A stretch of 64,000 nt of DNA, taken from NCBI RefSeq assembly GCF_026967925.1, contig NZ_JAPVBI010000001.1, forward strand, positions 1,511,894 through 1,575,893, read 5' to 3'. The notes beneath the pieces are model-generated. The model did no database searches and had not been told where the DNA came from. It worked only from the letters and a program-made list of their open reading frames with translations. Positions within the stretch are counted from its first letter, which is position 1; every line of letters begins with the position of its first letter. Positions 39,788-44,420 of the stretch are shown one piece after another. A program made the position numbers and the translations under genes. The stretch is from Modestobacter sp. VKM Ac-2985 (GTDB taxonomy: Bacteria > Actinomycetota > Actinomycetes > Mycobacteriales > Geodermatophilaceae).

Positions 39788-41005
39788 TCATCTCCTCGGT
39801 TCGTCGTTCGTGGGCACGGGGGTGGCGCCCGGCCGGCCGGGGTGGCCGTCCGGGGGGAAGAACAGCTGGAGCACCCGCTCGGTGGCCGAACCGTCCTCCA
39901 GGGAGCAGAAGCGCTCCCGGAACCGGTTGTACCGCGCCGAGGGCTCCCATGGGCGGTCGCCGAGCCGGGCGATGGCCGCCAGCACCTCGTCGCTGGTGGT
40001 CAGCAGCGGGCCCGGGGCGATCTCGGCGAGGTCGAAGTAGAAGCCCCGCAGGTCGTCGCGGTAGTGCTCCAGGTCGTAGGTGAAGTGCACGATCGGCTTC
40101 CCGGTGACGGCGAAGTCGAACATCGTCGAGGAGTAGTCGGTGACCAGGACGTCGGCGGCCAGGTAGAGCTCGCTGATGTCGGGGTACCGGGACACGTCCA
40201 CGAGCGGCGCCGGGCCCTGGACCACGAGCTGGTCGGACACCATCGCGTGCAGTCGGACCAGCAGCACGTGATCCGGGCCGAGGCCACGCGCCAGGTCGCC
40301 CAGGTCGACCGGGAACGAGTGCGCCGGACCGTCGTCGCTGAGCACCAGGTCGTCCCGCCAGGTCGGCGCGTAGAGCACCGCCGTCACGTGCTCGGCGATC
40401 CCGAGGGACTCCCGCACCCGGGCGCGGCGGCGGTCCCGGTCCGGTGCGCTGAGCACGTCGTTGCGCGGGTAGCCGGTCTCGTGCACCGGCCCGTCGAAAC
40501 CGAACGCGCTGCGCAGGTGCGGCGTGCTCGCCGCGTTGGGGGAGAGCAGGTGGTCCCAGCGGGCGATGTCCCGCATCACCATCTCCAGGCGGCCTTCCGG
40601 CGCCCAGACCGCGTCCCGGTGCAGCCGCTTGAGCGGCGTGCCGTGCCAGGTCTGCAGGTAGGTCGTCGTCGGCTGCTTGTCCCACTCCCGGGACAGGCCG
40701 TCGTTGGAGACGATGACGTCGGCGGACTCCAGGGCCGCTCGGGCGCCGGGGCCCCAGTGCTCCTCGGTGTGCACCCCGGCCGGGAAGTCGCCGCGCAGCT
40801 CGGGGCGGGCCAGCCAGACGGCGTCCATCTCGGTGCCGCGCGCCAGGAGGGCCTCGTAGATCGCCCGCGGGTTGTCGTTGTACCGGCCGCCGAAGCTGTT
40901 GAAGACGACCTTCACCGTCGTCGGCTCCGGACGGAGGAGGGTGCGGTCACCCGGCATCGGGTGCACCTCGTGGCCCGCTGCGGGCCTGGGCGTTCTGTCA
41001 TGCAC
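39788..41005 (-). CDS. CDP-glycerol glycerophosphotransferase family protein
   Basis: A 405-residue TagF/TagB-type GT-B transferase that moves polyol-phosphate units from a CDP donor to a wall polymer or lipid-linked primer on the inner membrane face. Signatures: FNSFGGRYNDNPRAIYEAL, TYLQTWHGTPLKRLHRD, LYAPTWRDD, and DYSSTMFDFAVTGKPIVHFTYDLEHYRDDLRGFYFD, the donor site. No membrane helix. Start GTG has AGGAG only three bases upstream; an in-frame ATG 48 bases later (MPGDRTLLRP) is the alternative. It forms an operon with the nucleotidyltransferase gene downstream. Confidence 0.88.
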   Translation of the reverse strand: MHDRTPRPAAGHEVHPMPGDRTLLRPEPTTVKVVFNSFGGRYNDNPRAIYEALLARGTEMDAVWLARPELRGDFPAGVHTEEHWGPGARAALESADVIVSNDGLSREWDKQPTTTYLQTWHGTPLKRLHRDAVWAPEGRLEMVMRDIARWDHLLSPNAASTPHLRSAFGFDGPVHETGYPRNDVLSAPDRDRRRARVRESLGIAEHVTAVLYAPTWRDDLVLSDDGPAHSFPVDLGDLARGLGPDHVLLVRLHAMVSDQLVVQGPAPLVDVSRYPDISELYLAADVLVTDYSSTMFDFAVTGKPIVHFTYDLEHYRDDLRGFYFDLAEIAPGPLLTTSDEVLAAIARLGDRPWEPSARYNRFRERFCSLEDGSATERVLQLFFPPDGHPGRPGATPVPTNDEPRR

Positions 41006-41382
41006 TCACTCCTCTTCCGTCGGTCCGGCTCGACCGGTGCGTGTGCGCGGTGACCGACCGGCCACGGGTGCGGCCTCTGCTGGCGCCAGCGGGGCAGTGC
41101 GGTGCGTCCTGTTGCGGTGCTGTGGTGCGTCCGGGTGCGCCACTGCACCGATTCGGGGCGGCGGTGCACCCGGCCGGCACCGGGGCTGGTCCTCCGGTCG
41201 CGCTGCCGCGTGCCGAGCGGCGCTGCTGAGTCCCGGTGGACCTCGACGTCCCGGTGCGTGCGGGCAGCGGTCGTCCCGCCGGGGCCGTCCCCGCTGGATC
41301 TCCTCGCCCGTCCGCAGTCGAGCCACTGCAGGCTACGGCGTGGAGGACCCCGCCGTCGAGGTGGGGGGCCGTGGCGGCGCGC
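41006..41382. other. 377-base gene-free leader region
   Basis: No convincing gene. Possible leader of the CDP-glycerol operon: a TAGCCT box reads leftward at 41336-41331 but would give a leader of over 300 bases. The plus strand is unusually rich in GTGCG/TGCGG runs between 41090 and 41150. The right end carries the leuS promoter region. Confidence 0.4.
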
Positions 41383-41388
41383 TAGGAT
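41383..41388 (+). promoter_or_regulatory. minus-10 box of the leuS leader
   Basis: TAGGAT 7 bases before the GTG of the leader peptide; predicts a leaderless transcript starting at the leader peptide itself. Confidence 0.6.
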
Positions 41389-41395
41389 CGGCTGC

Positions 41396-41431
41396 GTGAC
41401 CGGCGGACTCCTGCTTCCCCAGCCGTGCTGA
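41396..41431 (+). CDS. leuL: leucine-rich attenuation leader peptide of leuS
   Basis: An 11-codon frame, GTG through TGA, encoding MTGGLLLPQPC with three consecutive leucine codons CTC CTG CTT, the last uncommon in this genome. It is preceded by a TAGGAT box at leaderless spacing. It is followed by a hairpin that reuses its 3' end (CCGTGCTG 41423-41430 with CAGCACGG 41449-41456) and by an intrinsic terminator. The arrangement is that of classical ribosome-mediated attenuation: stalling on uncharged leucine tRNA should favour readthrough into leuS. The symbol follows the usual naming of leucine leader peptides. Confidence 0.72.
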   Translation: MTGGLLLPQPC

Positions 41432-41457
41432 TCTGACCTGATCCAGACCAGCACGGC

Positions 41458-41484
41458 GACCCCTCCTGTGTGAGGGGTCTTTTT
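41458..41484 (+). terminator. leuS attenuator (intrinsic terminator)
   Basis: GACCCCTC pairs with GAGGGGTC around CTGTGT and is followed by TTTTT, one of the few true T-tailed terminators in the window, 38 bases before leuS. AGACC at 41445-41449 could compete for GGTCT at its 3' side. Confidence 0.75.
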
Positions 41485-41522
41485 CTGTCCGCCGCCAGAT
41501 CCTTCCCGTGGGAGCACCGACG

Positions 41523-44420
41523 ATGAGCCAGACGGCCAGCCAGCACACCGAGCCCACCGCCGACGGAGTGCCGCCGCACCGATACACCCCGGCGCTGGCG
41601 AACGAGATCGAGCTCGCCTGGCAGGACCGGTGGGAGGCTGAGGGCACGTTCCACACGCCCAACCCGGTCGGCCGGCTGAGCGAGGGCTTCGACCGGGTGG
41701 CCGACCGGCCCAAGGCCTTCCTGATGGACATGTTCCCGTACCCCTCGGGTGCCGGGCTGCACGTCGGGCACCCGCTGGGCTACCTGGGCACCGACGTCAC
41801 CAGCCGCTTCCTGCGGATGGACGGCCACAACGTGCTGCACCCGATGGGCTACGACGCCTTCGGCCTGCCGGCCGAGCAGTTCGCCGTGCAGACCGGGCAG
41901 CACCCCCGCGTCACGACCGAGGCGAACATCGCCGCGATCAGCGCCCAGCTGCGCCGGCTGGGCGTCGACCACGATCCCCGCCGCACCTTCGCCACGATCG
42001 ACCCGGGCTACTACAAGTGGACCCAGTGGATCTTCCGGCAGATCTTCGAGGCGTGGTTCGACCCGGAGACGGACCGGGCCCGTCCGATCAGCGAGCTGGT
42101 CACCGAGCTGGACGCCGGCACCCGCGAGCCCGCCGAGGGCACCCTGCCGGAGGGCCGCACCTGGGTGCAGCTGTCCGACGTCGAGCGCCGCCGGGTCGTG
42201 GACGCCCACCGGCTGGCGTACCTGCACCAGGCGCCGGTGAACTGGTGCCCCGGGCTGGGCACGGTGCTGTCCAACGAGGAGGTCACCCCGGACGGGCGGT
42301 CCGAGCGGGGCAACTTCCCGGTGTTCCGTCGTCCGCTGACCCAGTGGATGATGCGGATCACCTCCTACGCCGAGCGGCTGCTGACCGACCTGGACCGGCT
42401 GGACTGGTCGGACTCGTTGAAGCAGATGCAGCGCAACTGGATCGGCCGCTCGACCGGTGCCCGGGTGCGGTTCCCCGTGTCGGGCGAGACCGTCGAGGTC
42501 TTCACCACCCGGCCGGACACCCTGTTCGGCGCCACCTACCTGGTGCTGGCCCCCGAGCACCCGCTGGTCGGCGAACTGACCGCCGACCGGTGGCCCGAGG
42601 GCACTGACCCGCGCTGGGCCGCGGGTGCGGACACCCCGGCCGAAGCGGTCGCCGCCTACCAGCGGCAGGCGTCCCGCCGCTCGGAGCTGGACCGGCAGGC
42701 CGAGGGCCGGGAGAAGACCGGGGTCTGGCTGGGCGTCACCGCGCGCAACCCGCTGACCGGAGCCGACCTGCCGGTCTTCATCGCCGACTACGTGCTGACC
42801 GGCTACGGCACCGGAGCGATCATGGCGGTGCCGGGTGAGGACGCCCGCGACTGGGACTTCGCGAGTGAGTTCGGGCTGCCCGTCGTCCGCACCGTGCAGC
42901 CGCCGGCCGACTTCGACGGCGGCGCGTACACCGGCACCGGGCCGATGATCAACAGCTCGAACGAGCAGCTGTCCCTGGACGGGCTGGACAAGGCCGCCGC
43001 GATCGCCAAGGTCACCGAGTGGCTGGTCGCCACCGGCGCCGGCGAGGCCACGACCACCTACAAGCTGCGGGACTGGCTGTTCAGCCGGCAGCGCTACTGG
43101 GGCGAGCCGTTCCCGGTCGTCTATGCGACCGACGGCGAGGACGCCGACCTGCCGATCGCCGTCCCGGAGTCGATGCTGCCGGTGCTGCTGCCCGACGTCG
43201 ACGACTACTCGCCCACCACGTTCGCCGACGACGACGCCGACTCCCAGCCCGAGCCGCCGCTGTCCCGGGCCACCGAGTGGACGACGGTGGAGCTGGACCT
43301 GGGCGACGGGCCGCGGCGCTACCGGCGCGAGACGAACACGATGCCCAACTGGGCCGGTTCGTGCTGGTACCACCTGCGGTACCTGGACCCGGGTGACGAC
43401 GAGCGGTTCGTCGACCCGGAGCTGGAGGCCTACTGGATGGGCCCGCGGGAGCCCGGTGACGTCGGCGGCGTCGACCTGTACGTCGGTGGTGTCGAGCACG
43501 CGGTGCTGCACCTGCTGTACGCCCGGTTCTGGCACAAGGTGCTCTTCGACCTGGGCCACGTGTCCAGCGAGGAGCCGTTCCGCCGGCTGGTCAACCAGGG
43601 CTACATCTCCGCCTTCGCCTACACCGATGCCCGCGGCTTCCACGTGCCCGCAGCCGAGGTGGTCGAGGAGGGCGGCCAGTTCCGGTACCACGGCGAGCTG
43701 GTGACCCGGGAGTACGGGAAGATGGGCAAGAGCCTGAAGAACGTGGTCACGCCGGACGAGATGATCGCCATGTTCGGTGCGGACACCTTCCGGGTCTACG
43801 AGATGTCGACCGGGCCGCTGGACCAGTCCCGGCCCTGGGAGACCAAGGCCGCGGTCGGGTCGCAGCGGCTGCTGCAGCGGGTATGGCGGGTCGTCGTCGA
43901 CGAGGAGTCCGGGGCGGCGCGCGCCGCCGACGTCGAGCCGGACGACGACACCTCGCGCGCCCTGCACCGGGCGATCGAGGCCGTGCGCGACGGCATGACG
44001 ACGCTGCGGTTCAACATCGCCATCGCCCGGATCACCGAGCTGACCAACCACCTGACCTCGGCCTGCCCGCCCGGGACGCCGGTGCCCCGCTCGGTCGCCG
44101 AGGCCCTCGTGTTGCTGGTCGCGCCACTGGCCCCGCACCTGGCCGAGGAGCTGTGGTCCCGGCTGGGGCACACCGGCTCCGTGGCCTGGGCGTCGTTCCC
44201 GGTGGCGGATCCGCAGTGGCTGGTCGACGACACGGTGGAGGTCGCCGTGCAGGTCAACGGCAAGGTGCGGGCACAGGTGGCCGTCCCGGCCGACGCGGAC
44301 GCCGCGGCGCTGGAGGCGGCGGCCCGGGCGGACGAGCGGATCGCCGGCTACCTCGAGGGCGCGACCGTGCGCCGGGTGGTCGCGGTGCCGGGCCGGCTGG
44401 TCAACTTCGTCCTGGGCTGA
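41523..44420 (+). CDS. leuS: leucyl-tRNA synthetase
   Basis: A 965-residue class I aminoacyl-tRNA synthetase charging leucine tRNA. The HIGH motif is HVGHPLGY (about residue 80) and the KMSKS motif KMGKSLKN (about residue 733). The CP1 editing domain between them has [22 protein letters not shown] and [21 protein letters not shown]. The leucine-specific zinc/insert region and carboxy-terminal tRNA-binding domain ([16 protein letters not shown]) are present. Start ATG follows GGGAG at 8 bases. Expression is probably set by the leader peptide and terminator upstream. Confidence 0.98.

Follow-up and report, generated by a model that had tools for sequence, protein, structure and literature searches.

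We examined a 64,000-nt stretch of the genome of Modestobacter sp. VKM Ac-2985 (Geodermatophilaceae), hereafter referred to as the window, in which leuS, the gene for leucyl-tRNA synthetase, is preceded by a compact leader element that most probably acts as a leaderless, leucine-sensing, ribosome-mediated transcription attenuator. The bias toward CUU at one leucine codon of a short open reading frame (ORF), the spacing of this codon from the downstream hairpin, the construction of that hairpin (A:B) from the last codons of the ORF, and the terminator that follows together argue for ribosome-mediated attenuation of leuS by leucyl-tRNA. We use the term “leaderless” because of the promoter spacing and a published homologue in Streptomyces lividans. 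The parts of the element are as follows.

41383–41388, + strand: −10 promoter box TAGGAT, seen in the sequence, with a 7-nt spacer to the GTG (leaderless spacing)
41396–41431, + strand: leucine leader peptide ORF, VTGGLLLPQPC, read from GTG to TGA (TGA at 41429–41431)
41408–41416, + strand: Leu codons CTC CTG CTT, the rare CTT (41414–41416) lying 6 nt upstream of the CCG in arm A
41422–41430, + strand: arm A of hairpin 1, GCCGTGCTG, from the fold, overlapping the last leader codons and the stop codon
41445–41449, + strand: AGACC, the candidate antiterminator strand of an earlier note on this DNA (partner GGTCT, 41476–41480), its last C within arm B
41449–41457, + strand: arm B of hairpin 1, CAGCACGGC, from the fold, its 3′ end adjoining the terminator helix
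41458–41479, + strand: intrinsic terminator hairpin of 8 bp, from a terminator scan and the fold (D, 41458–41465; loop, 41466–41471; E, 41472–41479)
41480–41484, + strand: terminator U-tract TTTTT, seen in the sequence
41510–41514, + strand: GGGAG, plausible leuS ribosome-binding site, seen in the sequence
41523–44420, + strand: leuS, leucyl-tRNA synthetase, with its ATG at 41523 (NCBIfam TIGR00396)

The earlier note had described a TAGGAT box at leaderless spacing, an 11-residue peptide with CTC CTG CTT, a hairpin reusing the end of the peptide frame, and a T-tailed terminator before leuS, and all of these were confirmed at their exact positions. The leader ORF reads GTG ACC GGC GGA CTC CTG CTT CCC CAG CCG TGC TGA (11 codons plus stop), and in the fold of the window leader its end forms the 5′ arm of the 9-bp A:B hairpin. 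The minimum free energy of this leader was −44.6 kcal/mol, compared with −26.5 ± 3.2 kcal/mol for shuffled sequences (z = −5.6), and the terminator helix D:E was computed at −14.4 kcal/mol; a terminator scan of positions 41000–42000 returned two nested sites against 0.1 expected. When the 4.7-Mb genome was searched for the pattern of a −10 box, a GTG, and three Leu codons, three matches were obtained, and reversed-pattern controls gave none. Besides the leuS leader, the pattern picked out the leader of leuA and the beginning of a hydrophobic ORF of 48 residues that is rich in Leu. The leuS product was identified as leucine--tRNA ligase (TIGR00396, 860.6 bits versus a cut-off of 548.4), and the nearest named LeuS locus was that of Modestobacter caceresii, with 94% identity.

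Among 112 genomes from the family Geodermatophilaceae, 111 gave a LeuS match (G082 gave none), and upstream stretches were taken from 110 loci, leaving out G071 and one of two places in G055. A TANNNT box 6–7 nt ahead of an ATG or GTG was found at all 110 loci, as was a short ORF containing two or more Leu codons; the leader started with GTG in 107 and with ATG in 3. Loss of the leucine codons or the terminator in close relatives had been named beforehand as the observation that would speak against an attenuator; the terminator was present at all 110 loci, and two or more adjacent in-frame Leu codons occurred in 108 (three in a row in 97). An A:B stem of at least 5 bp adjoining the terminator was parsed in all but one leader, so that counts based on this parse refer to 109 leaders. 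Under stricter demands, namely an ORF no longer than 16 codons together with LL and an arm motif, L004, L135, and L177 were missed. At L177 (genome G004), an extra T shifts the frame at the Leu codons and the hairpins are intact, which may reflect a natural variant or a sequencing error.

Covariation was analyzed in the 103 distinct family leaders, in which shared ancestry inflates the counts of compensatory changes. Compensatory changes were found in both hairpins: helices A:B and D:E together had 99.5% of cells paired, and at four pairs both partners had changed (15 cells), a result not reached by any of 500 shuffles. Taken separately, A:B was 99.4% paired with three pairs changed on both sides, and D:E was 99.6% paired with one such pair; slid controls dropped to 35–61% pairing. 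The U-tract region was T-rich across these aligned leaders. In L049, L196, L217, L266, L336, and L343, a stop codon precedes the CCG, yet arm A is kept, indicating that arm A is conserved as RNA rather than as peptide.

The codon located 6 nt ahead of the CCG of arm A was strongly biased: among the 109 family leaders with an in-frame CCG, it was CTT in 91, CTC in 17, CCT in 1, and never CTG. A further Leu codon lay 3′ of this position in 29 of the 110 family leaders. In the 75 distinct leaders from outside the family, the Leu run ended with CTT (71 leaders) or CTC (4 leaders), and this final codon stood 6 nt ahead of arm A in 74 of them. CTT is otherwise very rare, accounting for 2 of 1,478 Leu codons in 29 family leuS genes, 0 of 1,700 in the leuS genes of 30 Streptomyces loci, and 0 of 266 in five window genes. 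A tRNA-Leu(GAG) gene was present beside those with the anticodons UAG, CAG, UAA, and CAA (11 of 47 tRNA places were examined). The sensor codon preferred at this fixed position, CTT or CTC, is therefore one read by tRNA-Leu(GAG).

Counted from the start of the P-site codon, the leading edge of a ribosome is approximately 15 nt away. With this footprint assumed and CTT in the A site, the ribosome is predicted to cover the RNA to approximately base 31, which takes in five of arm A's nine bases; a stall at the first Leu codon would leave arm A free. On the other side of the hairpin, helix B and the terminator helix directly abut, with no base between them, in 162 of 199 leaders (102 of 109 in the family, 49 of 75 outside it, and 11 of 15 in further families), despite an A:B loop length that varies from 9 to 47 nt.

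We infer that transcription begins at the GTG and that a 70S ribosome then reads the 11 codons of the peptide. Under a shortage of leucyl-tRNA, notably of the tRNA-Leu(GAG) reading CUU/CUC, the ribosome would stall with CUU in the A site and, judging from its footprint size, would mask arm A over approximately five of nine bases, so that A:B would be blocked. When leucyl-tRNA is plentiful, the ribosome would reach the stop codon and depart and A:B would form; the base of A:B would then join the D:E helix, and transcription would end before leuS. The net effect would be more leucyl-tRNA synthetase when charged leucine tRNA is short.

How the state of arm A would act on the terminator is the step at which explanations diverge. 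In a classical four-segment attenuator, which we regard as a real possibility for this leader, masking of A would free B to pair with the loop of the terminator and with the 3′ end of D (GCACGG:CCUGUGU) before E is made; in the window's clade, this antiterminator would be extended by AGACC:GGUCU, blocking the terminator. The combined structure reaches −12.4 kcal/mol in the window, and antiterminator hairpins are stated for the Streptomyces leuS attenuators (PMC1262725). The AGACC strand does lie where the earlier note had placed it; however, the antiterminator role tentatively assigned to it was rejected, because the pairing with GGTCT (5 bp, −4.0 kcal/mol alone) is not conserved (67.4% of cells paired) and shows no compensatory change, with 52 of 500 shuffles scoring as high. 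Of the 110 family leaders, 23 combine a loop GACC with a GGTC at the terminator end, and the window's genus, represented by 23 loci, contributes 12 of these; this association gave a Fisher p of 0.014 (0.027 after deduplication), uncorrected for relatedness, with co-occurrences mostly in g1 (the window's genus, 12) and g4 (9).

Pairing of arm B with the terminator loop was possible in 86.3% and 97.8% of cells in two registers, the latter in the bulged form GCR[C]GG:CCUGY. These registers gained no support either: all three registers together yielded zero compensatory changes, and native terminator loops paired with B no better than permuted ones (median rank 0.59 for 21 and 0.47 for 20 distinct segments, in a test that included Streptomyces leaders and left out 29 loci, 6 of them repeat Geodermatophilaceae records). 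Capture of E by the A:B loop was likewise discarded, its energies being equal to those of shuffled loops (mean z 0.0, 94 distinct leaders), and the stability of the B-to-loop segment was not unusual (−4.6 versus −3.9 kcal/mol for shuffles).

We then computed the extent of pairing of arm D of the terminator at the stage when arm E has yet to be made, with the leader free, with a stalled ribosome, and with a ribosome at the stop codon. In the Escherichia coli controls, D pairing was higher with a stalled ribosome than in the free leader (leu, 0.67 versus 0.04; thr, 0.90 versus 0.62; his, 0.69 versus 0.18; trp, 0.62 versus 0.30), and with the ribosome at the stop codon it was down to 0.01 in leu, thr, and trp; his did not fall (0.68). 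In the leuS leaders (109 in the family, 75 outside it, and 15 in further families, respectively), mean D pairing was 0.23, 0.28, and 0.31 when free and 0.26, 0.26, and 0.40 when stalled, the latter values lying below those for a ribosome at the stop codon (0.34, 0.37, and 0.45); with shuffled upstream sequence, it was 0.42, 0.57, and 0.45. The window's own leader increased from 8% paired without a ribosome to 42% with arm A masked, and it was 43% paired with the ribosome at the stop codon. In none of the 199 leuS leaders did D pairing under stalling exceed that of both other states by more than 0.3, a criterion of imperfect sensitivity that leuL and trpL passed, that thrL narrowly missed (a rise of 0.28), and that hisL failed in its at-stop part. 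The D-capturing antiterminator of the classical four-segment type was thus not observed on stalling. When the RNA upstream of arm A was omitted, masking arm A did raise mean D pairing from 0.05–0.12 to 0.26–0.40, and for this reason a weak antiterminator is still to be considered.

For this last step, we tentatively favor A:B as a helper hairpin that promotes termination by stacking or pausing, rather than a D-capturing antiterminator, because no such antiterminator was supported and because B regularly adjoins D. A weak kinetic antiterminator is only slightly less likely, and some other arrangement less likely again. If A:B is a helper, the ribosome paused at the rare CUU would govern only whether A:B forms, and A:B, lying end to end with the terminator helix, would boost termination through coaxial stacking or RNA polymerase pausing. 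In the E. coli S10 leader, a hairpin upstream of the terminator is reportedly needed for control. As a candidate pause site, we considered the Y of TGYG located 12–13 nt past stem B; the motif occurred in 104 of the 109 leaders of the family and in 60 of 75 outside it, but the idea was abandoned as a universal feature because only 3 of 15 leaders in further families had it.

Two further explanations were considered. The terminator could be constitutive and the leader ORF a by-product, or merely a means of keeping the 5′ end translated, with no leucine control of leuS; substitution of the regulatory codons in the Streptomyces coelicolor ilvB leader is cited as having been without effect (PMC1262725). 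This explanation appears improbable to us, since it does not account for CTT or CTC, never CTG, at one fixed position, for the constancy of the spacing to arm A outside the family as well, or for the retention of arm A where a stop codon precedes it. Alternatively, control could be translational, acting at the leuS ribosome-binding site on read-through RNA, as suggested for the leuA LEU element. The GGCGGAC in the leader ORF (41402–41408) is complementary to GTCCGCC at 41487–41493, just past the U-tract, and the two pair when the entire window leader is folded computationally. Across the family leaders, pairing of the 5′ GGYGG with CCRCC past the U-tract beat permutation only modestly (18.06 versus 16.88 ± 0.21; 0 of 2,000 permutations as high), many leaders used other registers, and the leuS leader carries a U-tailed terminator, which by visual inspection the leuA leader in this genome does not. 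We therefore consider translational control highly improbable; the GGYGG:CCRCC pairing itself is left unexplained because its registers differ between clades.

A leuS attenuator is not new in kind, because attenuators described as classical were predicted ahead of leuS in S. coelicolor and Streptomyces avermitilis in 2005, and ahead of trpS in Streptomyces, by Seliverstov et al. (PMC1262725), and because a leaderless leuS leader has been reported in S. lividans TK24. The latter, LeuL2 (MRAVRLLLSEPR), comes from a transcription-start study that describes a leaderless LLL leader before leuS with a hairpin and a U stretch and also lists leaders for alaS, thrS, and trpS (PMC8079986). The statement in the earlier note that such control of a tRNA synthetase on a leaderless message is unusual is therefore not supported; of its interpretation as a whole, the leucine attenuator ahead of leuS stands, whereas the AGACC:GGTCT antiterminator and the supposed rarity of synthetase control do not. 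What the present analysis adds is the sensor-codon bias, the adjacency of the terminator to arm B, and the lack of a supported antiterminator.

The Modestobacter leader resembles the Streptomyces leuS attenuator in having a Leu-codon leader ORF, a hairpin, and a poly-U terminator upstream of leuS, and it differs in that no antiterminator is supported here, whereas one is described there (PMC1262725). The Streptomyces leuS leaders that we examined had the same layout as the Modestobacter leader, but their arm sequences and peptide differ (MRAVRLLLSEPR versus VTGGLLLPQPC). With LeuL2 it shares a leaderless Leu leader directly ahead of leuS, three Leu residues, a hairpin, and a U stretch; LeuL2 belongs to another family and is known from an annotation study (PMC8079986). 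A run of cognate codons, a hairpin overlapping the leader ORF, and a terminator are also found in the leu, trp, his, and thr attenuators of E. coli and Salmonella. The E. coli and Salmonella operon leaders begin with a ribosome-binding site. The Modestobacter leader differs from the E. coli leaders in its leaderless spacing and in showing no average rise of D capture on stalling, and it precedes a tRNA synthetase gene, whereas the E. coli and Salmonella attenuators govern biosynthesis. Rare Leu codons are likewise a feature of the E. coli and Salmonella leu leader, and in Salmonella the replacement of rare CUA by CUG lowered sensitivity (cited in PMC1183508).

Within the Modestobacter genome, the leuA leader, VRGSLLLISRGEALS, is also leaderless-spaced and contains the same CTC CTG CTT, but it precedes a different gene and no U-tailed terminator was seen after it by eye; its locus (L221, G000:C1) lies approximately 170 bases upstream of the leuA match. 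The leuS leader falls outside the LEU element (leuA) class, in which Leu codons pair with the ribosome-binding site and a terminator is lacking, since it has a U-tailed one. In an Rfam search of positions 41000–42000 (E up to 5), no T-box aptamer was found, the three matches being weak, unrelated, on the opposite strand, and below their gathering scores; no Rfam family was matched at the window leuS leader, the leuA leader of the same genome, or one Streptomyces leuS leader. No paper on a Geodermatophilaceae leuS leader was found in a literature search that mostly excluded subscription papers.

Beyond the family, an ORF-plus-arm test detected the leader at 39 of 45 loci of a named set (which includes five Geodermatophilaceae records, one Planctomycetes record, and one Acidimicrobiaceae metagenome-assembled genome), at 25 of 29 and 18 of 60 loci of the class in two sets, and at 0 of 35 loci from other phyla. 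The six negative loci of the named set were L036, L050, L053, L059, L067, and L074. Among the 42 class loci scored without a leader in the set of 60, L238 has a terminator and a match to our covariance model; the stretch of L199 starts inside leuS and so could not reveal a leader. A looser short-ORF scan returned chance ORFs in two Bacteroidota loci (L087 and L088). The covariance model, built from Geodermatophilaceae leaders only, matched one place in Modestobacter's own genome and, with a cut-off of E ≤ 0.01, had matches in 88 of the 196 genomes of the class, the weakest close to that cut-off. When 20 of the 94 listed model places were inspected, 16 preceded leuS, 3 preceded acetolactate synthase genes, and 1 preceded neither; L338, one of the 16, was left out of the measurements because the match begins inside the leader. 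The model also found leaders close upstream of leuS in 18 genomes of family f19 (E values of 1.6e−8 to 1.5e−11), and these match the leaders of the named Streptomyces loci. The Geodermatophilaceae and Streptomyces leuS leaders thus appear, on the evidence of their sequences, to share common descent, and the leuS attenuator predicted in Streptomyces would be a widespread device in Actinomycetia. Two types of LeuS occur in the class, matching the N-terminal part of the window's LeuS at E near 1e−60 and near 1e−25, respectively, and the leader can precede either.

The three acetolactate synthase places (L345, L346, and L348) are leaders with a hairpin adjoining the terminator, ahead of ilvB-like biosynthetic genes, and their matches to the model are weak (27–33 bits). 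The L345 leader picked by the leuS leader model encodes VHRILVVSEHVV; the sole acetolactate synthase leader with a clear short ORF has the run ILVV rather than LLL. Attenuation of ilvB1 in Mycobacterium tuberculosis was described in 2026 (PMC13236596).

Several observations weigh against the attenuator as proposed. Two family leaders depart from the pattern, L177 by the frameshift that removes the Leu run and L135 by a Glu inside the run. No leader was found at the named Nocardia and Mycolicibacterium loci L059, L067, and L074, or at the loci sampled from families f2 (13), f18 (13), f15 (5), and f25 (4); two other f25 genomes, with a LeuS of the more distant second type, carry it. The main text of a Streptomyces clavuligerus Term-seq paper does not mention leuS (PMC8269248). 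No antiterminator register was supported by covariation in the family leaders, or by permutation or folding in sets that included Streptomyces leaders, so that by the textbook scheme the switch is incomplete. Finally, an equilibrium calculation favored D:E even with arm A half masked; this comparison of terminator and antiterminator was dropped as non-discriminating because its sign was no different for the leu, thr, and his leaders of E. coli. Upstream of the leader, the divergent neighboring gene (39788–41005, − strand) is TarF-like (teichoic acid glycerol-phosphate transferase), with 237 of 550 bits, under the curated cut-off.

Two features of the leuS leader stand out: at one position fixed across 109 family leaders, the sensor codon is CUU or CUC and the common CUG does not occur, and the textbook antiterminator was not recovered by a covariation or folding test, whereas four E. 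coli attenuators show more capture on stalling. A two-hairpin attenuator with no D-capturing antiterminator, used across much of Actinomycetia and perhaps shared with ilvB, is a conjecture that we hold with more doubt than confidence; if true, it would constitute a two-hairpin mechanism of attenuation common to these bacteria. The leader makes it directly testable how ribosomes on leaderless leaders govern termination in high-GC bacteria.

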